50,242 nucleotides of DNA from Verrucomicrobiota bacterium (lineage in GTDB: Bacteria; Verrucomicrobiota; Verrucomicrobiia; Limisphaerales; UBA1100): the NCBI GenBank assembly GCA_028343615.1, contig JAOLZA010000013.1, positions 1 through 50,242 of the forward strand, read 5' to 3'. This document shows positions 855 through 47,411 of this stretch, one piece after another. Numbering within the stretch: the stretch's first letter is position 1; each line of letters begins with the position of its first letter. The position numbers and the translations under genes were made by a program. Under the pieces are notes generated by a model. That model saw nothing but the letters and a program-made list of their open reading frames with translations. It searched no databases and was not told where the DNA came from.

Positions 855-2225
855 ATGAACACGAATCGCCGCCAGATGTTGAAGGGGCTCTCGCTGGGAG
901 CAGGGTCTATGCTGCTTTCCCCGATGATCCAGCGGGTGATGGCTAATGCTGAAGGTAAGGAGCGTCCGCCACGTTTTGTTTTCGTTCTTCAAAGTAACGG
1001 CTTTGATGCCGTGCAGGCGTGTCCGGAGAGTATTCCGTTTCAGAAATATGCGGACCGCGAAAAATTTGAATCGATTGATCTCACACAGCACAAGCTGCCC
1101 AAGGGGCTCGCGGCTCTGGAACCTTTAAAGAGCAAGACCACAATTGTGCAGGGGCTTTCGGGTCGCTGCACCGGTGGTGGTCATTCCACTTGGGGTGGCT
1201 CCCTCGGCCAGTACCGGATATCCGGCGCCAATCTTTCACCTCAAAATGTCACGATCGATTACCAACTTGGGCAGGCCGTTCCCGGCATCCTGCCTTGGGT
1301 TGGGGTGGGAATGGCTTCGGGTGCGCGTGATGCGTTAATGAATATTACCGCGCGCGCAGCGCATAAAACCATGCCGATCATCCTGAGCCCGGAGAAGGCC
1401 TATAACTCTTTCTTCAGCGTGGTGGCCGGTGGCGAGCGGGAAAAGAATTTTCATCTGAAGCGTAACCTGCTCGATTACATGGTGGGTGACGTGAAAAAAA
1501 CCCGCAAGGCGTTGGGTTCGCTGGGTGGTGAAGAGCTGGACGCGTACTTGAGCGCTTACGATCAATTGGCCGCGCGGCAGTATCAGTTGCTGGCCAATAA
1601 GGAAGTACTCAAGAAGTCGGCACCCAAGTTGGATGACCGGTTTACCTCCACGGTGGCGACCAAACGGCTGGAGGCCCAATTCGAACTCGCCGGCTCTGCG
1701 CTTATTGGTGGGCTGAGCAACGTGGCGACCCTTACCTGTGCGGCGACCGAGATCAACGCCCAGCCTTACCTTGGAATCGGCGTAGACGTAAGCAATCACG
1801 GCTATGGACACATGGGGGGCAACAAGCGCGATGCCAAAGGCATTCCTTATTACGAGAAAACCCGCGGATGGCTTTTCAGTCTCATTGCCAAGCTCGCTCA
1901 ACGTTTGGAGAAAACTCCCGAGGGCGATGGCAACATGCTGGATAATACCATTATCGTTTACATGAGTGACGCGCCTGACACCCATCACTCGACGGGTTAT
2001 GAGTGGCCGCTGGCGATTGTCGGAAATCTCAAGGGCAAAATGAATTTGGGTGGCCGCTACATTAATTTCCCCGGATACGGAAAACCGGGCCACTACACGG
2101 TGGGCGCGTTGTACACGACGTTCCTTAATTGTGTCGGTCAACCGCAGCAAACTTTCGGTCGCCTTGATCCGGATCTGGACGAGAAGGCAATGCAAACCGG
2201 GCCGCTTTCCCAGTTGATGGCGTAA
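855..2225 (+). CDS. DUF1552 family protein with Tat-like signal
   Basis: A 456-residue DUF1552 protein. The N-terminus NRRQMLKGLSLGAGSMLLSP has twin Arg followed by a Gly/Leu-rich hydrophobic stretch, so folded export by the Tat route is likely. The DUF1552 body is recognised from RPPRFVFVLQSNGFDA near residue 35, the GGGHSTWGG region, and the late SNHGYGHMGG and YMSDAPDTHHS segments, which are His/Asp-rich and resemble the alkaline-phosphatase-like fold of the related DUF1501 family. Biochemical function is not established. GAGGA about ten bases before the ATG is a good ribosome site and fixes the start. The gene leads an operon with 2235-3899 and 3899-5830. Confidence 0.88.
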   Translation: MNTNRRQMLKGLSLGAGSMLLSPMIQRVMANAEGKERPPRFVFVLQSNGFDAVQACPESIPFQKYADREKFESIDLTQHKLPKGLAALEPLKSKTTIVQGLSGRCTGGGHSTWGGSLGQYRISGANLSPQNVTIDYQLGQAVPGILPWVGVGMASGARDALMNITARAAHKTMPIILSPEKAYNSFFSVVAGGEREKNFHLKRNLLDYMVGDVKKTRKALGSLGGEELDAYLSAYDQLAARQYQLLANKEVLKKSAPKLDDRFTSTVATKRLEAQFELAGSALIGGLSNVATLTCAATEINAQPYLGIGVDVSNHGYGHMGGNKRDAKGIPYYEKTRGWLFSLIAKLAQRLEKTPEGDGNMLDNTIIVYMSDAPDTHHSTGYEWPLAIVGNLKGKMNLGGRYINFPGYGKPGHYTVGALYTTFLNCVGQPQQTFGRLDPDLDEKAMQTGPLSQLMA

Positions 2226-2234
2226 CGCAGGCTC

Positions 2235-3899
2235 ATGATGAAGCGCCTGTTCTCTATTCTTCTTTTTAGCCTTAGCATCAGTTTCTGGCTTGAGGCGGCG
2301 GCGGGTTCCAAGTGGACGGAGCATCGTCGCGCACTGCTCATCAACGCCAGTAACGACAAGGCACATGTGCAGACCGTTAAGGCGCTCGAAAAAGCGCTGC
2401 ACACCAAAGGCTTTGTTGTCACCACGCTGGGTGATGCACCCAAGACAGACGGGGTTACTTACGAGAAATGGGTCCGCAGCATACCTACCATGGGGGTAAG
2501 TGTGTTTTATTATCTGGGCCATTTGGAAACGGAAAAGAGCACGGACGGCAAGCGCCTCTGCTACTCCATGAAAATCGGAGGCTACCGGGAAATCCCGCCC
2601 GCACGCGACCCGGCTTTGGGGCGAGCCCAAGTGGAGGACAAGCCCTGGCTTAGTTTGGAGCGGTTATCCCAGAAACTAAGCAAGAATACCGCCCGGGCAA
2701 ACATGGTGGTGATCGATTGCCTCGGCATTGATGACAAGGCCAAGTCCGGACTCAAGGACGAGGACCTGTTTGGCCAAGCTCAAGGACAGTTCCGGGGCGA
2801 GTTGTTTTCCAGTTTCTACCCGGGCAAAGGAGCTTTTCATCCCAGTTTGGAGATTCCTAAGTTCGGCCCATTGATGGCGGATGTATTGATCCAGTCCCTG
2901 AAAACGAATGGCTCACTCCCACCGCGCATTGATAAACTTGGCTATACCGTCACGCCGCGAGAGATCACCTTCGCCTTGAAGCACGAGGCGGCCAGAGTGT
3001 CCGCTCCCCCCGCGGTTTTGCAGGAAGGGCGTTTCGCGGGTGATCAGTGGGTCGACCAAAACGGTTTCTGTTTTGTTTGGTGTCCTGCGGGCACTTTTAT
3101 GATGGGCGACAAGGCCTTCGAGGATTCTCAGCCGGTGAAGGTCACCCTCTCGAGGGGGTTCTGGATCGGCAAGTACGAGACTCTGGGCGACGAGGCCAAT
3201 CTCTTCAATGCAGGTGGACAAAAGCTCGGCAACAAATACGCGAAGTTCCTGCCGCCGAGCATCGGCAGCATCGACAAGGTTTCTCCCGAAATTGTGAAAT
3301 GGCAGCTCTATGGAGTCAGTAAAGGCCTCGCTTACAAGGGCTGGACTTACGATTACCCCACCGAGGCGGAGTGGGAGTATGCAGCCCGCGCAGGCACACG
3401 GGCGGGTTATCCCTGTGCTATCAAGGACCTCGGTAAGTACGGCAACTTCGCCGACCGTACCCTCTACGAGGATCGTGAGCTGGCGCATTACATCTATGCC
3501 AACCGTGAAGCGGATGATGGCTACGGCCGGGTCTTTGCCCCCATTGGTCAGTACCATCCCAATCCTTGGGGTATACACGACATGCTGGGTAACTTGGCTG
3601 AGTTGTGCTGCACCTATTATACCGACCAGTTGATCACAGGGGCTGATCCCAATGATCAATCACTTCCTGACCCGAGAGGGTCGCGGCACCGGATATCGCG
3701 TGGCGGTTCCTGGTGCAGTCCGCCTGAATATCTGCACGTGGCTTTTCGCAACGCATTCACCGGCGCCCAGACCCCGCATGTCGGTATGCGTCTTGTACTG
3801 CGGCAAGGGGAACGGATCACACGAACCCGCACTGAAGTCACGAAGGCCCTTCAGGCGAAACTGGATGCCGAGAAAAAATCCAAGCAGAAGAAAAAGTGA
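2235..3899 (+). CDS. Caspase-like domain fused to FGE/SUMF1-like domain, both apparently degenerate
   Basis: A 554-residue secreted protein (signal within residues 1-24). Residues about 29-250 resemble a bacterial caspase-like (peptidase C14) domain: RRALLINAS opens the fold, VFYYLGH carries the presumed catalytic His96, and MVVIDCLG corresponds to the strand normally ending in Asp-Ala-Cys, here with Cys162 one position early. Residues about 277-522 are a formylglycine-generating-enzyme-like (FGE-sulfatase/SUMF1) domain: WCPAGTFMMGD, YPTEAEWEYAARAG, WGIHDMLGNLAEL, RGGSW and the closing VGMRLVL. The two catalytic Cys of true aerobic FGE correspond to Ser495 and Leu500, so maturation activity is doubtful. 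The tail is Lys-rich (KKSKQKKK). It sits 9 bases after the DUF1552 gene and overlaps the next start. Confidence 0.8.
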   Translation: MMKRLFSILLFSLSISFWLEAAAGSKWTEHRRALLINASNDKAHVQTVKALEKALHTKGFVVTTLGDAPKTDGVTYEKWVRSIPTMGVSVFYYLGHLETEKSTDGKRLCYSMKIGGYREIPPARDPALGRAQVEDKPWLSLERLSQKLSKNTARANMVVIDCLGIDDKAKSGLKDEDLFGQAQGQFRGELFSSFYPGKGAFHPSLEIPKFGPLMADVLIQSLKTNGSLPPRIDKLGYTVTPREITFALKHEAARVSAPPAVLQEGRFAGDQWVDQNGFCFVWCPAGTFMMGDKAFEDSQPVKVTLSRGFWIGKYETLGDEANLFNAGGQKLGNKYAKFLPPSIGSIDKVSPEIVKWQLYGVSKGLAYKGWTYDYPTEAEWEYAARAGTRAGYPCAIKDLGKYGNFADRTLYEDRELAHYIYANREADDGYGRVFAPIGQYHPNPWGIHDMLGNLAELCCTYYTDQLITGADPNDQSLPDPRGSRHRISRGGSWCSPPEYLHVAFRNAFTGAQTPHVGMRLVLRQGERITRTRTEVTKALQAKLDAEKKSKQKKK

Positions 3900-5830
3900 T
3901 GAAGCATTACCCGACGTTAATATTTGTTCTGTTTGCGTTTGGGCTGAAGGGGGATGAGGAATTTACCCGCAAGATTCAACCTTTCCTAAACACCTATTGC
4001 ATTTCCTGTCACGGCCCAGAAAAACAGAAGGGCAAAATCCGTTTCGACCAGCTCACAGCCAGCATGAGTGATCGTAAGGAAGCCAAATTGTGGGCACGTA
4101 TGTTGGAGGCCATGGAGTTTGGCGAGATGCCTTCAGACAGTGCCAATAAATTTCCCACCAAGGCAGAGGCACGCTTGGTGCAGGGCTGGATTAGCCGCGC
4201 CTTGGAAGCGCAGGGCCTCGCGGTGGAGGAAAAACGGGACAAGGAAGGCTACGGTAATCTTGTTTCACACGAGCTACTTTTTTCTCCTGCCGAAAATAAG
4301 AGAACCATTGATGTAGCCGCCCGTCTCTGGCGAATCACTCCCAAGGCCCTTGCCAACCTATTGCGCGGTGCGCGAATGGTTTCTAATCCTTTCGACCTGG
4401 AGAAGCCTCACGGCAATTTCCGCGACTTCAAGGGGAAATATCATTTCAACTCACTGATGGCCGAGCAAATCACCGAACTGGCCATTGCCCACTCCGATAA
4501 GGAGGCCAAGAACGCCCGCAAGATGATCGTTGGCTTGCGGGAAAAGGGGAGCACCATCGATGAAGCAAACCGGGAGGCAATCAAGCGACACTACAATACT
4601 GTGCTACGCCGGTCACCTGCGGAGAAAGAGATGGAGTCACTGATGGCTCTACTCAAGAAGGTGGATGCCGAGTTGGGAATTCCGCGTGGTCTTCAGGCTG
4701 CCTATGCCGCAATTATATTACAGCCGGAAACCTTATTTCGCTTCGAGGGAACCGGTGGGTCAGGTGATTCAAATCGGGTTAGTCTTTCCCGTCGTGAGCT
4801 GGCCACTTCACTTTCCTACGCCCTGACGGACCTGCCGTTGGATGGCAATATGCTGCGGGCATTTGAGAATAAAAAAACGCCCGTGCGTGATATTATCCGT
4901 GCTGAAGTTGGCCGTTTGTTCAAAGATGAAAAGCGACCCTACGCTAGGAATCGTCTACTGCAGTTCTTTCAGGAATATTTCGATTATCAGAAGGCTGAGG
5001 ATGTCTTTAAAGATCAGATCAAGGGCCATAAACATTGGGCTCCGGCATTGGTGTATGATCTGGATGCGCTGATCATTCATACGCTCAAAAAAGATAAGCA
5101 GGTTTTCAAGACCTTGTTGACCACCCCTGAATATTTAATTTTTGTTAATAGTCATCGCGATCACGGCAATCCGCTTGTTTACAATCTACCGCCGGACTGG
5201 AAACCAACATCCAAGCCGGTGCGATTTCCCAAGAATCAGCGGATGGGAGTACTAACCCACCCGGCGTGGTTGGTGGCTCACTCTGGAAACTTTGATAATG
5301 ATCCTATTCGGCGTGGCCATTGGATTCGCTATAAACTTTTGGGCGGTAACGTCCCGGATATCCCTATCAATGTGGATGCCAAGCTGCCCGATGAGAAAAC
5401 GATGACTCTACGTGAACGTATGCATGTGACTCGGGCCGAGACTTGCTACAAATGTCACAGCAAGATGAATCCCCTAGGATTGCCTTTTGAATTGTATGAC
5501 CACTACGGTCGCCTTCGTTTTACTGAATTGGATAAGCCGGTTGATACCACCAGTAAGGTTGTGAACACCGGTGTTGTAGGAGTGGATGGAGAGGTGGGCA
5601 GCCCTTTTGAGTTGATCAAACGGCTGGCTGATTCAAAACATTGCGAACAGGTTTTTACCCGCTACGTATTCCGGTTCTTTTTAGGCCGCAACGAAACACT
5701 CGGCGACGCCAAAACTTTACAGGAGGCACACAAGGCCTACGTGGAGGGTGATGGTAGCATGAAGGCTCTGGTAGTTTCTCTGCTCAGTTCCGATTCGTTT
5801 ATCTACCGAGCCAAAATTGAAGAACGGTAA
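3899..5830 (+). CDS. PSCyt1/DUF1592-DUF1588-DUF1585 planctomycete-type cytochrome protein
   Basis: A 643-residue secreted protein. After a short signal, CISCH at 34-38 followed by GPEKQKGKIRFDQL is the PSCyt1 heme-binding segment. The middle contains the DUF1592-like helical part (LSRRELATSLSYALTDLPLDG, LLQFFQEYFDY). CYKCH at 516-520 followed by SKMNPLGLPFELYDHYGRLR is the DUF1588 signature, and FTRYVFRFFLGRNET to SLLSSDSFIYR is DUF1585. The usual DUF1587 segment seems shortened. It probably binds c-type heme outside the cytoplasmic membrane; function is unknown. The ATG at 3899 overlaps the preceding TGA by one base, indicating translational coupling. A GTG at 3896 would add one residue. Confidence 0.88.
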   Translation: MKHYPTLIFVLFAFGLKGDEEFTRKIQPFLNTYCISCHGPEKQKGKIRFDQLTASMSDRKEAKLWARMLEAMEFGEMPSDSANKFPTKAEARLVQGWISRALEAQGLAVEEKRDKEGYGNLVSHELLFSPAENKRTIDVAARLWRITPKALANLLRGARMVSNPFDLEKPHGNFRDFKGKYHFNSLMAEQITELAIAHSDKEAKNARKMIVGLREKGSTIDEANREAIKRHYNTVLRRSPAEKEMESLMALLKKVDAELGIPRGLQAAYAAIILQPETLFRFEGTGGSGDSNRVSLSRRELATSLSYALTDLPLDGNMLRAFENKKTPVRDIIRAEVGRLFKDEKRPYARNRLLQFFQEYFDYQKAEDVFKDQIKGHKHWAPALVYDLDALIIHTLKKDKQVFKTLLTTPEYLIFVNSHRDHGNPLVYNLPPDWKPTSKPVRFPKNQRMGVLTHPAWLVAHSGNFDNDPIRRGHWIRYKLLGGNVPDIPINVDAKLPDEKTMTLRERMHVTRAETCYKCHSKMNPLGLPFELYDHYGRLRFTELDKPVDTTSKVVNTGVVGVDGEVGSPFELIKRLADSKHCEQVFTRYVFRFFLGRNETLGDAKTLQEAHKAYVEGDGSMKALVVSLLSSDSFIYRAKIEER

Positions 5831-8808: not shown

Positions 8809-10077
8809 ATGAGCACAAGAGAACCTCGCCCCATCGACCGCCGCAGCTTCCTTCAGGGTGCCGGTTTGTCTCTGGCCCTGCCGTTCCTGAAAAGTGGAGC
8901 TCCGCGGGCCTTCGCCGCAGCACCTGAAGAACGCCCCCGGCGGATCCTGGCCATCGGCAATCACCTGGGCTTTTATCCTCAGGCATTCTTCCCAAAGGAG
9001 GCCGGTGCGGACTATGTCAGCAGCCAGACCCTGAAGAACATTGAGAAGCACCGTAAGGATTTCACCGTATTCTCGAATCTGGATGATGGGGCCCATGGAG
9101 GTCATTCAGGGGTGCATACTTTCTTAAGTGGTGGCATCCGCAAGGAGGAATCGGGGGGGTTCCCCGAGAAGAATATTTCCCTGGATCAGGTAGCCGCCGA
9201 ACACAGCGGCAGCACCGCCCGTTTCCCCTCGATCAACGCCGGATTGGCGGGAGGCACGGATATGTGCTGGACTCGCACGGGCGTGCGAATCCCGCCGGTG
9301 AACAATCCCGCCCGTCTTTTTGAAGCCCTTTTCGTTCAAAGTTCAAAAGCCGAGCGCGACTTGGAGCGAAAGCGTCTGGGCCATCGGGGGAGTGTCCTCG
9401 ATGCGCTTCGTGAGTCCGCAAAATCGCTGCACGGCAACCTGAACAACGCCGATCGCGACAAGCTCGATCAGTACCTGACATCGGTGCGCGAGGTCGAGCG
9501 CAGGCTGCAGATGTCCGAGGCCTGGCTCGACAAGCCGAAGCCCAAGCCGGCCATCGACCCGATAGCCGATGAAGAACGCATGCACATCGAGGAGTTGCCG
9601 CTTTTTTTCGATCTGCTGACCCTGGCGCTGCAGACCGACTCCACCCGGGTCGCGACCTTCGAGATTCCGATGGGATTTACGACCTCCGACCTGGACAACG
9701 TCACCTCCGGCTACCACGGCCTCTCACACCATAGCAAGGGCGAGGACAAGCTGGAACAACTCAAGGTGGTGGAGGATTACATCTTCACCCAGGTCAACCG
9801 ACTCTTCGACGGTCTGCAGGAGGCAAAGATCTTCAACGACACTCTGGTGGTCATGGGCAGTGGCATGAGCGACGGTTCCCAGCACAGCAACAAGGATCTA
9901 CCCGTGCTCCTGGCCGGCGGAGGTCTCAAGCATCAGGGCCACGTGGTCAGCCCCGCGGACAAGCATAAGCGCGTGCCCCTGTCCAATCTGTGGTTGTCAT
10001 CCCTGCAATGGTTTGGTGTCGAGCGCGATCGTTTTGGCAAGAGCAACGGCACTTTTTCACAGATGGATTTTTCCTGA
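8809..10077 (+). CDS. DUF1552 family protein with Tat signal (second copy)
   Basis: A 422-residue DUF1552 protein. IDRRSFLQGAGLSLALPFLKSG is a clear Tat signal (RR-S-F-L-Q then a hydrophobic run). The body shows RRILAIGNHLGFYPQAFFP, GGHSGVHTFLSGG, the charged middle LDQYLTSVREVERRLQ, and the late GYHGLSHHSKGEDKL and VVMGSGMSDGSQHSNKDLPVLLAGG segments with His/Asp clusters. Molecular role is not established. It lies 3 bases before the PSCyt1 gene 10081-12549, so the two are clearly co-translated. Codons are strongly C/G-ending, in contrast to 12626-16050 downstream, hinting that the pair moved as a unit. Confidence 0.9.
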   Translation: MSTREPRPIDRRSFLQGAGLSLALPFLKSGAPRAFAAAPEERPRRILAIGNHLGFYPQAFFPKEAGADYVSSQTLKNIEKHRKDFTVFSNLDDGAHGGHSGVHTFLSGGIRKEESGGFPEKNISLDQVAAEHSGSTARFPSINAGLAGGTDMCWTRTGVRIPPVNNPARLFEALFVQSSKAERDLERKRLGHRGSVLDALRESAKSLHGNLNNADRDKLDQYLTSVREVERRLQMSEAWLDKPKPKPAIDPIADEERMHIEELPLFFDLLTLALQTDSTRVATFEIPMGFTTSDLDNVTSGYHGLSHHSKGEDKLEQLKVVEDYIFTQVNRLFDGLQEAKIFNDTLVVMGSGMSDGSQHSNKDLPVLLAGGGLKHQGHVVSPADKHKRVPLSNLWLSSLQWFGVERDRFGKSNGTFSQMDFS

Positions 10078-10080
10078 ACG

Positions 10081-12549
10081 ATGAATCGCTCACATCATAT
10101 CGCGATTGCCTTCCTCGGACTCTTCTCAGTAGGTGCTCTGCAGGCCGAGTTGCCCGAAACCTTCCTCAAGCAGTACTGCTACAAGTGTCACGGACCGGAC
10201 AAGCAAAAGGCCAAGCGCCGCTTCGACACCTTGCCCGCTACCATCAAAGATTTTCGACAGCAGGAGCAATGGCAGGAGATCATCGATCAGCTTAACCTGA
10301 GTGAGATGCCGCCCGAAGACGAAGAGCAACCCACCCAGGAAGAGAGGCTTGCTGCGGTTAAGAGTATGACCGTTGCCATCGCTGATGCCCGCGAGAAATT
10401 CGCCGGCGCCAGTCAACACACGACTCTCCGTCGCCTGAACAAAGTGGAGTATCAAAAAACCATCAGCGACCTGCTCAGTCTTAACATTGACGTATGGAAC
10501 CCGGCAGAGGATTTTCCTGCGGAAGTAACGGCCGAAGGGTTCGATAACGACGGTGCTCAACTCGTGACCTCCGGCCTGCTGTTGCAAAAATACCTCCCTG
10601 CGGCCGAGGCGGCAGTTAAACGCGCCACGCACTTCGGGGAAAAGCCAGAAACCAAACTATACGCGCAGCAAACGCCGTTTTATTTCAAGGGCAATGAAGC
10701 CAAGGGCTTGCCCAAGTTATTTCAGACTGGCCGGTTTCGTTTTGTTCCTGAGACGCCTTACACCGATCTCTACGGCCGTCATTATCGCGGCGGACATATC
10801 GGCTTCCTGCCACTGTTTCGACAAGGAGGAGTTACTTATAGCGGCATTTACACCATTCGAGTTCGGGCTGCAGCGGTGGGCCGCGTCCATGACTACGGCA
10901 AAGCTCTGGGCGATTTTCGAAATGGTGATCCATTGGTAATGGAGATTGCAGCAGTGGATCGACGTGGCAGTGTCACTAGCACGGGCAACGTTTCGAAAAT
11001 GACTTCGCTGGCGCGCATAGAGCTAACCAGCGAGAAGCCGAAATGGTTCCAATGGAAGGTCTACATGGAAGCCGGCTACGAGCCGGAAGTCCGCTTTCGC
11101 AATGGCCCTCTGGCGGCTAAGCGAATGGTCCGAGTACTAACGACTCAGGCCGCCGATAAACCGGAATTCAAGCCTTTCATCGGCATGAAGGCCGGCATCG
11201 AGAAGGGGAACGGCGTACTCAAGGCCTATAAGGGCCCCCGCCTGCGGATCTGGGAAATCAAAGTCGAAGGCCCGCATCAGCAGAGCTGGCCGCCGCTAGG
11301 GCACCGCGTGCTCTTTGGGAATCTCAAGCCGGGCGAACTGAACCCGGAAACAATTAACGAGCGCCTGAGTGCCTTCGCCAGAAGTGCCTTCCGGCGTCCA
11401 CCGACCGAGGGCGAGCTTAAGCCGATCCGCTCCCTGGTCGCAGCCAAACTGGAGGCCGGACTCAAGCCTCTCGATACATTGCAGCTCGGGTTCCAGGCCA
11501 TCCTGTGCGCGCCAGGTTTTCTCTACCTGAATGAGGGTGAGGGACAACTTGAAGGCTACGCCCTGGCCTCACGCCTCTCCTATTTCCTGTGGTCTTCCAT
11601 GCCTGATGATGAACTGCTCAAGCTCGCCGCTGCCGGCACACTCGGTGAACCTGCGGCTCGGCGCAAGCAGGTGGAACGTATGCTTGCCGATCCGAAGGGG
11701 CAGCGCTTCGTGAGTAACTTCACGCGGATCTGGCTCGAACTCGATAATATTGGCAAGATGCCGCCGTCCAAGGACTTCCTGACCTACTATCGGGATAACC
11801 TGGATAACGCCATGGGCAAGGAGACCGAGCATTTCTTCGGGCACATACTCAAGGAGAACCTGCCGCCCCGCGAGTTTCTCACGGCCAACTACAGTTTTCT
11901 CAACCGCGAGCTGGCGGAGCATTACGGAATGCCTGGGCTCAAAGGGAATCACTTCCGTAAGGTTATTCTGCCGAAGGCATCGCGCGGTGGAATCCTGGGG
12001 CACGGCAGCTTTCTAACAGCTTCGGCCAATGGCGTTGACACCTCGCCGGTAGTGCGGGGAATTTACGTGATGAACAAACTCCTGGACTATACCCCGCCGC
12101 CACCGCCAGACGACGTGCCTGCCATTGAACCAGACCTTCGCGGCGCGACCACCCTGAGGGAGCAATTAATCAAACACCGGGCGGATGCCACCTGCGCCCA
12201 GTGCCACAACAAGATCGACCCGCCGGGCTTCGCCTTGGAGAACTATGACGCCATCGGCGCTTGGCGCGATCAATACACCGGTAAACTGAAAATAGACTCC
12301 TCCGGCAAGCTCCCTGGCGGCAAGAGCTTCGAATCGAACGCCGAGTTCAGGAAGTTGATTGGCTTGCAGGACGAAACCTTCACCCGTTGCCTGACCAAGA
12401 AGCTGCTCACCTACGCCATCGGCCGTAAACTCAACAGCAGCGACCGCCCGAGCATCGACAAGATCACCAAGGAAATGGCCAGCAAGGATAAAGGCCTCCG
12501 TGATCTCATCCAAGCCGTCGTCGCCAGCGAGAGCTTCCTCCAGAACTAG
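10081..12549 (+). CDS. PSCyt1/DUF1587/DUF1592/DUF1588/DUF1585 protein
   Basis: An 822-residue secreted protein with the full family architecture. Signal residues 1-22; CYKCH at 33-37 with GPDKQKAKRRFDTL (PSCyt1); TTLRRLNKVEYQKTISDLL (DUF1587); a middle beta-rich part of about residues 200-420 with GIYTIRVRAAAVGR, perhaps a sugar- or ligand-binding module; ALASRLSYFLWSSMPDDELL (DUF1595/1592); REQLIKHRADATCAQCHNKIDPPGFALENYD with CAQCH at 705-709 (DUF1588); and the C-terminal FTRCLTKKLLTYAIGRKL to VVASESFLQN (DUF1585). Two c-type heme sites suggest a periplasmic electron-transfer or structural role; no reaction is known. It is coupled to the DUF1552 gene upstream. Confidence 0.92.
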   Translation: MNRSHHIAIAFLGLFSVGALQAELPETFLKQYCYKCHGPDKQKAKRRFDTLPATIKDFRQQEQWQEIIDQLNLSEMPPEDEEQPTQEERLAAVKSMTVAIADAREKFAGASQHTTLRRLNKVEYQKTISDLLSLNIDVWNPAEDFPAEVTAEGFDNDGAQLVTSGLLLQKYLPAAEAAVKRATHFGEKPETKLYAQQTPFYFKGNEAKGLPKLFQTGRFRFVPETPYTDLYGRHYRGGHIGFLPLFRQGGVTYSGIYTIRVRAAAVGRVHDYGKALGDFRNGDPLVMEIAAVDRRGSVTSTGNVSKMTSLARIELTSEKPKWFQWKVYMEAGYEPEVRFRNGPLAAKRMVRVLTTQAADKPEFKPFIGMKAGIEKGNGVLKAYKGPRLRIWEIKVEGPHQQSWPPLGHRVLFGNLKPGELNPETINERLSAFARSAFRRPPTEGELKPIRSLVAAKLEAGLKPLDTLQLGFQAILCAPGFLYLNEGEGQLEGYALASRLSYFLWSSMPDDELLKLAAAGTLGEPAARRKQVERMLADPKGQRFVSNFTRIWLELDNIGKMPPSKDFLTYYRDNLDNAMGKETEHFFGHILKENLPPREFLTANYSFLNRELAEHYGMPGLKGNHFRKVILPKASRGGILGHGSFLTASANGVDTSPVVRGIYVMNKLLDYTPPPPPDDVPAIEPDLRGATTLREQLIKHRADATCAQCHNKIDPPGFALENYDAIGAWRDQYTGKLKIDSSGKLPGGKSFESNAEFRKLIGLQDETFTRCLTKKLLTYAIGRKLNSSDRPSIDKITKEMASKDKGLRDLIQAVVASESFLQN

Positions 12550-43255: not shown

Positions 43256-44674
43256 TTAAGCGCGAATCTTGTCGATTGCCGCTGGTTGTCGCTTTGCAGG
43301 GCCGAGGCGGTTCTTGGTGCCCATGGCGGTTAGCATTGTGTTGTAAACGTCAATCGCTTCGGCTTTCACATCCATGATTTGGCCGGTCTTGAAACGGCCG
43401 TTGGCGCTAGTGATGGCGTGGAAGACACCCGAAAGCTCGCGCTTCACATCGTTGTGGCGGCCATCACCGGACTCGGTGGAAATAGTAAGCAACGAGTTTT
43501 CTAAAATACTGTGGCCATTGGCTTCCTTTGTTTCGTCTAGGCGTTTCATGAAATAGGCGAGCTCGTTCATCTTCATGTGCGCGTGCGCTCGAAGCTGCTC
43601 ATTCTTTTTCTTCTCGTTGAACTTGTGCCACCACTCGTGACTACAGCCGCCGGAGCCGGAGCGCTTGTGCATAGCGGCATCATCAAAAGTGTAACGTGTA
43701 CGACCGTTATATTTGTATTCGCCCGTGAGCCGGATACGTTCGCCAGCGGCAAGGAATGTGATGGAGCCAAATCGCGTCCGGTCCATTTGGATGGCCAGCG
43801 CGTAAAGATCAGCCATTAGTCGCCACTCGGTGGTGAGTTCCTCCAGCGTGATGTCGATGCCCTCGCCGCCGGGATCAGCCGGACCTCCGTGAGGCACTTT
43901 GGATCGCGGAGGAAGCGCGGGCGAATTGGTGTCCTTGTGTTTCAGTGCGTAGGCGCGCTGCTCAAATTCGCGAATGCGATCAAGGTGTTCCCGCACACGC
44001 GCCTTGGAGGCTGGACCGAGGGGCGAGTTAGGGCCGGAATAAAAACGATACTGATCCACAACCGAGTCTAGCACGCTGCGCTTGAGGCGCGTATGGCGGG
44101 CATCTGGATCGTTGGCGAGGTTCACTCTGCCGAACACGCGCTCGAACAGGGCGCGCGGTTTTTCCTGCATCGTGCCGGCAACCGTGCCGTTTTCCCCATA
44201 GCTGTGCACGTAACGTCCCACGCGGCTACGGCGGAAAAATGTGCCGCCCACCAACGTGGAAACCATGCCGGTCGGCAGACCCTTGGGATAATGTGTCTTG
44301 CGGATGACTTGATCGATGGACGGACCTCCTGCCTTCGCCCCGCCGTCTGCGGGCATGGCGGTAAAGGATCCGGTAGCACCATCAAAATGCGCGTTGATGC
44401 CTCGCACATCACAACGCACCTGATCCACATTGCGCATGATGAGCAGCTTGTCTTTCAGCGGCTTGAGAGGCTCGAGCACGTCCTGAAATCCCTCCGCCTG
44501 CAACGGCGCTGGAATGCCGAGTCCGAAAAAAACATTAAACGCGCGGACGGGCACCTCGGTCTTGATCGCGCCGAGGGCGTTGGCGGCAATCATCTCCTCA
44601 AGGAGAGGGAAGCCGATGGCAACACTGCCGAGCCCCTTGAGCATGGTACGGCGGTTGATGTGGATTCGCTTCAT
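43256..44674 (-). CDS. DUF1552 family protein with Tat-like signal (third copy)
   Basis: A 472-residue DUF1552 protein. The N-terminus is HINRRTMLKGLGSVAIGFPLLEE, a twin-Arg signal. Family segments include VRAFNVFFGLGIPAP, AHFDGATGSFTAMPADGG, SIDQVIRKTHYPKGLPTG, the charged VREHLDRIREFEQRAYALK, and the late SHEWWHKFNEKKKNEQL and LTISTESGDGRHNDVKRELSG. Function is unknown. It is the second gene of a two-gene minus-strand operon: its ATG overlaps the stop of the PSCyt1 gene by four bases. Gene order is reversed relative to the other two DUF1552/PSCyt1 pairs in the window. Confidence 0.9.
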   Translation of the reverse strand: MKRIHINRRTMLKGLGSVAIGFPLLEEMIAANALGAIKTEVPVRAFNVFFGLGIPAPLQAEGFQDVLEPLKPLKDKLLIMRNVDQVRCDVRGINAHFDGATGSFTAMPADGGAKAGGPSIDQVIRKTHYPKGLPTGMVSTLVGGTFFRRSRVGRYVHSYGENGTVAGTMQEKPRALFERVFGRVNLANDPDARHTRLKRSVLDSVVDQYRFYSGPNSPLGPASKARVREHLDRIREFEQRAYALKHKDTNSPALPPRSKVPHGGPADPGGEGIDITLEELTTEWRLMADLYALAIQMDRTRFGSITFLAAGERIRLTGEYKYNGRTRYTFDDAAMHKRSGSGGCSHEWWHKFNEKKKNEQLRAHAHMKMNELAYFMKRLDETKEANGHSILENSLLTISTESGDGRHNDVKRELSGVFHAITSANGRFKTGQIMDVKAEAIDVYNTMLTAMGTKNRLGPAKRQPAAIDKIRA

Positions 44675-47286
44675 TCGTGGATTTCCGTTTGGGTGTTTAA
44701 CACCAAGTCACTCATTACGATGGCGGTGATTAGATTCCCATAAGTGCCACCATTTTTCCAAGCTGTATTATGAATCGTCCGGATGTGGCGCGCGTCATGG
44801 GACGTCAATGGTCGGCCGAGGCAGAATTGCGAGACCTTCCAGGTGAGCGTTTCGCGCACCCGCTCGCTACCGGCGAGATGGTCCATGAGTTCGGCAGAGG
44901 TTCTATAGGTGATAGATTTTGCACTACCGGGAAACAGAATCTCGCCGTCTTCACGCAGTCGGTTACCATGCTCGTCGGCATTATGGTAGGCGCCCATTCC
45001 ATTAAATTTTTCCAGACCAAAGGCCAGCGGCTCAAACTTGGAATGGCATCCGGCGCATTTGGTATTGGCGATGCGCTGCTCGGCGATGGCGCGCTGGGTA
45101 AGTCCAATCTTGGAGGGCACAGGCGTGGTGTCCACGCAAGGTGGCGGGTCCTTCACCACGCCCCGCAGCAGATTATGAAAAACGAAGAGTCCGCGTGCCA
45201 CCATTGATGCCTCGTCACCTCCTACTGTGAGCACGCTACCCTGGGTGAGCAATCCGCCACGACCGGGGACGGCGGCAAGGTTGTAGCGCGTCAGTTTGTT
45301 TCCAATCGTTTTTAGTCCATAGTGCGAGGCAAGGCGAGGAGAGGCGAAGGTGACCTGCGCGTTGAACAGGTCCGAAAGCGGGCGCTTTTGTTTCCAGGTC
45401 ACCTCGCGGAAAAATGCCAGCGTCTCTGTGCGCATATCAGCGGCCAGAGTGGCGTTCCAATGTGGAAACTTTTTTGCATTGGGGCGGAGGTTGGCAAGGC
45501 GATCAAGATCGAGCCACTCGCTAATAAACCGCGCCGACTGGTCAACCGTGCGCGGATCCTGCAGCATACGACGTACCTGCTCTGCGACACGATTGCGATC
45601 AGAAAGCTCACCGGCTTCCGCCGCGCGCAGTAGTTCCTTGTCCGGTGGACCGCCCCAGATGATGTAGCTCAACCGCGATGCTAGTTCGAAACCGCCCACC
45701 GGCCATGGGGTGCCGTCGCCCTGCTGATTTTCGATGCGGTAAATAAATCGCGGCGATTGCAGCATGACCTTAATGACCGCTCCCACGGCCTCTTGATAAC
45801 TGACACCGGCAGCCGCCAGAGTGGTGGTGATGCCGCGATATGCCACCACCTCGCGTTCCTCCAGCGGTCCACGCAGAAGCCATTGGCCCATCTTGGCAAT
45901 CAACGGCCGCATGTCCTTGTCAGTAAATTTTCGTCCTCGTGAAAACTTTTGAGCGAACGCAGGAACATCCATACGCTTCACGATGATGTCGGCAAGTTGC
46001 GCAAAGGCGTCCACGTGCTTGAGATCAACATTGAGATTGTAGGCTGTGTTACTGAAGCCATCGGCGCGCAAATCCGGTGGCAACACGCGCCGTGCGATCA
46101 CGCCGATGTCCACACCCACAGTGGCGCGCACGGTCTCGATATACTCGGGGATTGTCAGTCGTCGCACCCAGTTTTGCCGGGCATGAGATTCGTTTGTGTA
46201 ATTCGCAGGATCAATTACTGCCACCGTCCACGACGCACCGCCATCAATCCACTGTTTCAAAGCCATTTTTTCCTCAGCTGACAGCGGCGGGCGTTTCTTG
46301 GGCATTTCATTTTTGGAAACCACCTCCCACATCACACTTTCTCCGGCTTTACCCGCCACGATGCTTTCGCCGTCGGCAAACGCCGTGGCCTTGCGCGTAA
46401 GATCCAGTTTACCCTTGTGGGTTGCGGGGTCGTGACACTCCACGCAGTGCTTGGCGAAGAGCGGCGCAATTTTGGTTTCAAACAAATCCGCATTCGGCGA
46501 TACCGCCAATGTCGAGGCCTCAGCTTCGGCTCGTGCTCCTGCTGTAAAATTTTTTGCCACTTCTGCCGCTGACAAGGCGCGGCTATAAATTGCCACCAGA
46601 AAATACGTGCCCAGCCATGAGCGATTGCCTGAGAGTTCGTTTGCCAATGCCAAGCGAAATGTGTTTGTCCAGTTGGATATAGAGCCGGGCACAGTCTGCT
46701 CCGCCTTGAGCTTGCCGTTGATGAAGACTCGTGCGCGACCACTACGCTCGCGAGTGTAAACCACATGAGTCAGCGCCAATTTCGCGGTCTTTGCGGGGCC
46801 GGCTAGACCGGGAATGCCATTTAGGCTCGTGCCACTTGTGCGCATGCGCACTTCAAACCGATCCTTCTTCTGTCCAAGGGTGAAGTTGCGATTGGTTGAA
46901 TCACGGGAGAGCGTCACCACCCTCGCTGGGCCGTCCTGTTGTGTGTTGGCCGGCTTGATCCATGCCTCAATCGTGATCGCCCCCGATCGCCGGACTGCGT
47001 TAAAAATTTTTGCCGACGGCTTGTCCGAGCGAATCACCGTTTTTGCCCTTACCTCCAGAGATCCCTTGGTGCGCCGCACTGCCTTCAAATCCGCAATTCG
47101 CAAATCCAACGCCGGCTGCACGCCTGATCGATCCTTCACAACCGGGCCATCTGTTGAATTGAAATCGTAAATCGCCTGCAGTCCTGTTTTCACCCGACCC
47201 GCCCCATTCAAGGTTCCGGCCACAAACCCAAACAGCAAACATATGTAAACGATGTGTTGGCCGGTTCTGAAGGGAAATGTGTTCAT
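44671..47286 (-). CDS. LamG-PSCyt1-DUF1592/1588/1585 fusion protein
   Basis: An 871-residue secreted protein. After a signal (IVYICLLFGFVAGTLNGA), residues about 32-250 form a concanavalin/LamG-like domain (GLQAIYDFNSTDGPVVKDRSG, GAITIEAWIKPA, HVVYTRERSGRARVFINGKL, LGTYFLVAIYSRALSAAEV). CVECH at 281-285 with HKGKLDLTRKAT is PSCyt1. ELASRLSYIIWGGPPDKELL, CAGCHSKFEPLAFGLEKFNG with CAGCH at 744-748, and SQFCLGRPLTSHDARHIR to AIVMSDLVLN are the DUF1592, DUF1588 and DUF1585 parts. LamG domains often bind glycans, so this copy may anchor to a polysaccharide. A TTG at 47325 is the only earlier start; ATG 47286 is preferred. Confidence 0.9.
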   Translation of the reverse strand: MNTFPFRTGQHIVYICLLFGFVAGTLNGAGRVKTGLQAIYDFNSTDGPVVKDRSGVQPALDLRIADLKAVRRTKGSLEVRAKTVIRSDKPSAKIFNAVRRSGAITIEAWIKPANTQQDGPARVVTLSRDSTNRNFTLGQKKDRFEVRMRTSGTSLNGIPGLAGPAKTAKLALTHVVYTRERSGRARVFINGKLKAEQTVPGSISNWTNTFRLALANELSGNRSWLGTYFLVAIYSRALSAAEVAKNFTAGARAEAEASTLAVSPNADLFETKIAPLFAKHCVECHDPATHKGKLDLTRKATAFADGESIVAGKAGESVMWEVVSKNEMPKKRPPLSAEEKMALKQWIDGGASWTVAVIDPANYTNESHARQNWVRRLTIPEYIETVRATVGVDIGVIARRVLPPDLRADGFSNTAYNLNVDLKHVDAFAQLADIIVKRMDVPAFAQKFSRGRKFTDKDMRPLIAKMGQWLLRGPLEEREVVAYRGITTTLAAAGVSYQEAVGAVIKVMLQSPRFIYRIENQQGDGTPWPVGGFELASRLSYIIWGGPPDKELLRAAEAGELSDRNRVAEQVRRMLQDPRTVDQSARFISEWLDLDRLANLRPNAKKFPHWNATLAADMRTETLAFFREVTWKQKRPLSDLFNAQVTFASPRLASHYGLKTIGNKLTRYNLAAVPGRGGLLTQGSVLTVGGDEASMVARGLFVFHNLLRGVVKDPPPCVDTTPVPSKIGLTQRAIAEQRIANTKCAGCHSKFEPLAFGLEKFNGMGAYHNADEHGNRLREDGEILFPGSAKSITYRTSAELMDHLAGSERVRETLTWKVSQFCLGRPLTSHDARHIRTIHNTAWKNGGTYGNLITAIVMSDLVLNTQTEIHE

Positions 47287-47411
47287 TGTTTCAGGCTTTG
47301 ACAAGCCGCTCACTGGAAAATTCAATGAACGTAGATTGACATGAATCCCTTTACCGGAACAGTTTTTTCATTGGCATTGACCAATCCCGCGACACGCGAA
47401 AAGCTTGGGCG

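Follow-up and report, generated by a model that had tools for sequence, protein, structure and literature searches.

Predicted exported pseudo-caspase/FGE-like fusion proteins are encoded beside DUF1552 and PSCyt3-type cytochrome genes in Verrucomicrobiota

Background

Fusions of a metacaspase with a formylglycine-generating enzyme (FGE)-sulfatase domain make up 33 of the 671 prokaryotic caspase homologues counted in an earlier survey (PMC3501461). Pseudo-orthocaspases are also known, in which Tyr at the position of the catalytic His is the common form of loss (PMC6426788). Conflict systems include both caspase domains and FGE/C-type-lectin domains (PMC7159879, PMC10907252). A survey from 2017 described PSCyt3 genes that adjoin a family of unknown genes, the functions of both being unknown (PMC5615132).

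In the present study, we analyzed a stretch of 50,242 nucleotides (hereafter, the window) from a Verrucomicrobiota bacterium (contig JAOLZA010000013.1), which corresponds to contig 34 in a genome of 2.5 Mb with an estimated completeness of 59%. The window contains a gene for a caspase-like/FGE-like fusion protein, which we call CF, between a DUF1552 gene and a cytochrome gene. CF resembles the pseudo-orthocaspases and the metacaspase/FGE fusions in its p20 homology, its substituted dyad, and the presence of both domains in one chain. Unlike the proteins in the available parts of those two reports, CF of the window subfamily has a caspase domain too diverged for Pfam; the Arg (or His)/Leu pair at the dyad and the constant DUF1552 and PSCyt3 partners are likewise absent from those parts. 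Intact caspase/FGE-like fusions from the same class (L106, L113, L116, and L118) have the two domains in the same order as CF; however, their His/Cys dyad is intact, they have no DUF1552 or PSCyt neighbours, and they belong to a separate clade. The trio of genes also resembles the PSCyt3 pairs of the 2017 survey and two other pairs in the window, in which a Planctomycete-type cytochrome gene accompanies a DUF1552 gene, but these pairs lack the third, pseudo-caspase/FGE-like member. Finally, PorK/GldK and the C-type-lectin-fold variable proteins share with CF an FGE-like fold without FGE chemistry, although PorK/GldK are not equivalogs of CF and have different partners. In the open-licence papers that we searched, no description of the DUF1552-CF-PSCyt trio was found, and a literature text search for DUF1552 together with DUF1592 gave no match.

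Results

The CF gene and its neighbours

The CF gene (P0001; 554 amino acid residues) occupies positions 2235-3899 on the forward strand, exactly as given in the first-pass annotation of this DNA. The parts of the CF gene and its two partner genes described below are on the same strand. Inspection by eye suggests that residues 1-24 (2235-2306) form a hydrophobic Sec-type signal sequence, and signal-like N-termini were seen in the same way in the relatives of CF. The caspase-like (pseudo p20) domain with a linker, delimited with relatives and profiles, corresponds to residues 27-268 (2313-3038), and the FGE-like domain (SUMF1, C-type-lectin fold), delimited by Pfam, NCBIfam, and PDB matches, corresponds to residues 276-525 (3060-3809). 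They are followed by a charged C-terminal tail (residues 526-554, 3810-3896) that is found in the alignments only in the window subfamily. In the genome collection searched, the close matches to CF come nearly all from Verrucomicrobiota MAGs.

Upstream, a DUF1552 (Pfam HXXSHH) gene of 456 codons lies at 855-2225 and is separated from CF by 9 bases (2226-2234). Downstream, the stop codon of CF and the ATG of the cytochrome gene (3899-5830) share one base in the sequence TGATG (3897-3901). This tight spacing on both sides is as the first-pass annotation had described it, and the fusion is also borne out, by Pfam PF03781 for the FGE-like half and by relatives and profiles for the caspase half. 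The neighbours that it had named, DUF1552 and PSCyt1, are likewise present, but the type of the cytochrome partner had to be corrected to PSCyt1-PSD5-PSD4-PSCyt3-PSD2 with two c-type heme motifs (CISCH and CYKCH). In the window, PF07586, PF07627, and PF07635 all scored above their cut-offs; thus, the DUF1552-PSCyt3 pair could be assigned. The immediate neighbours of CF according to Pfam are a glyoxalase-like gene, the DUF1552 and PSCyt genes, an ATP-grasp gene, and a sulfatase gene.

The DUF1552 protein has a Tat-like N-terminus (RRQMLK), and the CF-linked DUF1552 proteins have HxxGH in place of the family signature HXXSHH. The CF-linked copy in the window scored 104 bits with PF07586, versus 255 bits for the copy at 8809. 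The latter belongs to one of two further DUF1552/PSCyt pairs in the window, at 8809-12549 on the forward strand and at 43256-47325 on the reverse strand; one of their cytochromes contains a Laminin_G_3 domain. No PSD3 domain was detected in the CF-linked cytochromes, unlike in these two pairs. DUF1552 gave 20 matches in the 59%-complete window genome. Pfam assigns a Sulfatase domain to ten genes between 7038 and 47325. Elsewhere in the same class, a caspase of the intact (His/Cys) type is fused to PSCyt1 (L110:802-2145, contig 18 of G527; Peptidase_C14, 96 bits; PSCyt1, 47 bits), which is a second link between a caspase and a Planctomycete-type cytochrome.

The caspase-like half and its dyad

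In the window protein, Pfam detected the FGE-like half alone and gave no match to a caspase domain. The homology of the N-terminal half to the p20 region of the Peptidase_C14/orthocaspase superfamily was found through relatives and profiles. We compared full-length orthologues with 62-97% identity to the window protein and remote members collected by order-level searches with an N-terminal profile. Distant members of about 30% identity matched Peptidase_C14 with 26-57 bits (cut-off, 21.4). In hhalign comparisons with intact orthocaspases, the window-clade profile gave a probability of 94.5%, the whole-family profile 99.6%, and an unrelated control 0.1%; among PDB sequences, the family profile matched the MALT1 paracaspase (E 9e-8). 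In the phylogenetic tree, the CF family formed one clade apart from the intact caspase-FGE fusions with support of 100/99.

Intact relatives have the motifs (Y/F)-x-G-H-G and D-A-C or D-C-C. The position of the catalytic His corresponds to residue 96 of CF (CAT, 2520-2522), and among 14 aligned orthologues this position is occupied by Arg in 11, His in two (the window and L044), and Tyr in one (L014). His96 of the window protein is thus not a feature of the family. The simplest reading is that it is a secondary change, which is probable because L009, which is 97% identical to the window protein, has Arg at this position. At the second motif (Asp161-Cys162-Leu163, 2715-2723), MAFFT alignment of the wider family and hhalign both aligned Asp161 with the motif Asp, so that Cys162 matches the middle, non-catalytic residue and Leu163 takes the place of the catalytic Cys. 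An earlier MAFFT alignment, which included just one remote member, had placed Cys162 opposite the Cys of D-G-C instead, which leaves some doubt about the register by one residue; whichever register is used, the intact dyad is absent from the CF family. The first-pass annotation had taken Cys162 for a catalytic Cys located one position early. The residues are as it stated, but the alignments favour Cys162 as the counterpart of the non-catalytic Cys found in motifs of the DCC type, the catalytic position being Leu163. Cys162 is invariant within the window subfamily.

In remote members of the family, the His/Cys positions are Tyr/Cys (with one further such case), His/Ala, Gln/Pro, and His/Gly. 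No CF member has both residues of the canonical dyad, the His position being Arg, His, Tyr, or Gln and the Cys position Leu, Cys, Ala, Pro, or Gly. The proposed loss of the caspase dyad therefore holds across the alignments of orthologues and distant members.

The FGE-like half

The FGE-like half matched PF03781 with 88 bits over residues 281-521 (cut-off, 23.3). As had been proposed, the active-site Cys pair of FGE (C336 and C341 in the human enzyme) is replaced by Ser495 and Leu500 (3717-3734). This loss is ordinary: none of 51 distinct related FGE-like domains keeps both Cys residues, 32 have neither, and 19 have one, so that missing FGE cysteines are the norm for this superfamily and do not distinguish CF. 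All aligned members of the CF family, including those of about 30% identity, have Ser at the position of Cys336 (3717-3719), which varies in other FGE-like domains. The position of Leu500 is Cys in several distant CF members.

Among PDB sequences, PorK/GldK lipoproteins and a variable protein of Treponema gave the best matches, better than those to true FGEs; the 58 bits scored with the GldK model fall short of its cut-off of 350, and CF is thus not an equivalog. A plasmid search with CF gave matches in the FGE domain only. A separate FGE-like gene on contig 74 of the window genome has the Cys-x4-Cys pattern (GGSYLCTDLYC), so that P0001 would be dispensable as a sulfatase maturase. We rejected CF as a dedicated sulfatase-maturing enzyme, given that it lacks the Cys pair and that another gene carries it.

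Linkage with DUF1552 and PSCyt3

Every one of the 20 distinct CF loci with sufficient flanking sequence carried both a DUF1552 and a PSCyt3 gene; these loci span two taxonomic orders and two gene orders within the one phylum sampled. In the same test, neither partner was found at any of 27 other caspase loci, in 22 of which the intact dyad was read directly and most of which had about 1.5 kb of flank per side; one of these loci, read over 12 kb, also had neither partner. The association of CF with DUF1552 and PSCyt3 is thus not due to chance. The first-pass annotation had read the three genes as one functional unit and suggested looking for the same gene order in other genomes; the 20 loci support such a unit, and they include one from another order (G788) that was absent from the building of the search profile and has all three genes.

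At every full locus of the window clade, CF lies between its partners in the order DUF1552-CF-PSCyt. The same order was found at remote loci in other families (G055, G159, and two loci in G174), and PSCyt-DUF1552-CF was found in G066 and at the second copy in G010. Four further loci are truncated by contig ends and retain a single partner, namely the cytochrome (G001, G016, and L050) or DUF1552 (G013). The spacing between the three genes in the relatives is mostly -4 to 21 bases; larger distances occur in L042 (about 155 bases from DUF1552 to CF) and in L103 (268 bases from PSCyt to DUF1552). In the case of G798 (contig 194), an apparent exception to the linkage was rejected, as the sequence is a fragment interrupted by stop codons that carries a GH motif but lacks the FGE part, and is not a CF gene. 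CF is an accessory gene, because it was not found in the genomes G003-G006 of the same genus.

Selection and structure models

The dN/dS between the window and two unsaturated orthologues was 0.10-0.27 for the caspase half and 0.06-0.08 for the FGE-like half; other pairs, which were saturated at synonymous sites, were excluded from this reading. Both domains are under purifying selection and not in decay. Compared with L039, the dS along the cassette (855-3899) falls from 0.89 in DUF1552 to 0.19 in the caspase half and rises again to 0.61 in the FGE-like half. This uneven synonymous divergence suggests recombination or local constraint.

AlphaFold2 models were built with alignments of the window and the nearer related loci, leaving out distant CF members. 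The full-length model (24-row alignment; pLDDT 43.6) was too poor for reading the geometry or an interface, and that of the N-terminal domain (11-row alignment; pLDDT 41.3) was too poor for the geometry of the pocket. Foldseek with the latter gave no match at E <= 0.001, as expected of such a model.

Discussion

The same two proteins, both predicted to be exported, adjoin CF wherever the flanking sequence suffices, and the catalytic residues are lost; for these reasons, CF is probably a structural partner of the DUF1552 protein and the cytochrome and not an enzyme of its own. The reading that we favour, with a confidence somewhat above even, is that CF is an exported pseudoenzyme that serves as a non-catalytic adaptor or ligand-binding scaffold in a complex of the DUF1552 protein with the diheme cytochrome. 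A catalytically dead caspase fold, joined to an FGE-like domain without the copper-binding Cys pair, would be exported alongside the Tat-exported DUF1552 protein and the diheme PSCyt3-type cytochrome. CF would then be a non-catalytic subunit of a putative exported complex with both neighbours and may act there as an adaptor or as a scaffold that binds a ligand. Export of the three proteins is predicted from their sequences, and their physical association and the role of CF are inferred.

The main rival is that the FGE-like domain has a non-FGE, perhaps redox, activity, for example as an oxidoreductase of the PvdO kind from which the diheme cytochrome would receive electrons; the caspase half alone would then be dead. 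PvdO is among the NCBIfam matches (E 6e-12, far below the model cut-off) and the PDB matches (E 4.5e-6), conservation is higher in the FGE-like domain than in the caspase half of CF, and the cytochrome gene adjoins. The invariance of Ser495, moreover, would be odd if the FGE pocket had no function and counts against reading the pocket as dead. However, the best matches are ring lipoproteins and a variable protein, whose roles are structural or binding, and we regard such an activity as unlikely.

CF might instead be one of several interchangeable accessory genes beside DUF1552/PSCyt pairs and not a constant member of a complex. The best-matching DUF1552 relatives that lack CF are likewise paired with PSCyt, their third place being taken by other genes. 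The CF-linked DUF1552 proteins, too, did not resolve as one clade, although a single clade was not rejected (AU p 0.17). Against this explanation, no CF gene was found apart from a DUF1552/PSCyt pair, and the trio has outlasted gene rearrangement with its tight spacing retained; we consider it somewhat less probable again. In seven of the pairs without CF (L167, L168, L169, L170, L173, L174, and L183), the gene after DUF1552 varies by locus, and by eye these genes are hydrolase-like, of a twin-arginine protein, or amidohydrolase-like, which would fit a slot with changing occupants in the third place.

A role of CF as a sensor or effector in a caspase-FGE type of conflict or phage-defence system is very improbable. 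Both kinds of domain occur in such systems, as noted above, and a PADLOC caspase model weakly matched two CF relatives, but PADLOC gave no match in P0001, the protease is dead, and the apparent signal sequence is at odds with the expected cytoplasmic location. Moreover, no NTPase, adaptor, or DGR was found by Pfam among the five immediate neighbours, which belong to other families. CF as a phage-defence gene was rejected on these grounds, and CF as a DGR variable protein was considered and also rejected. Least credible of all is an active protease using Cys162 and His96, for despite the invariant Cys162 of the window subfamily and the window's own His96, most orthologues have Arg for that His, Leu163 stands at the D-x-C position, and the distant members have other pairs.

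Conclusion

Beyond the role of CF itself, we propose, at slightly less than even confidence, that the trio forms an exported module of three components in Verrucomicrobiota, not described before, with the dead caspase/FGE-like fusion as a fixed structural subunit of a DUF1552-diheme cytochrome complex. DUF1552 and PSCyt genes are present in these genomes in many copies, and what PSCyt proteins and their neighbours do was still unknown to the 2017 survey (PMC5615132); a recurring third member whose folds can be recognised offers a handle for purification and structural work. In CF, selection keeps a caspase fold without its catalytic residues in a protein that is predicted to be exported, probably in a redox-linked setting. 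If the proposed module is real, the caspase fold would have been retained here for architecture and not for proteolysis.
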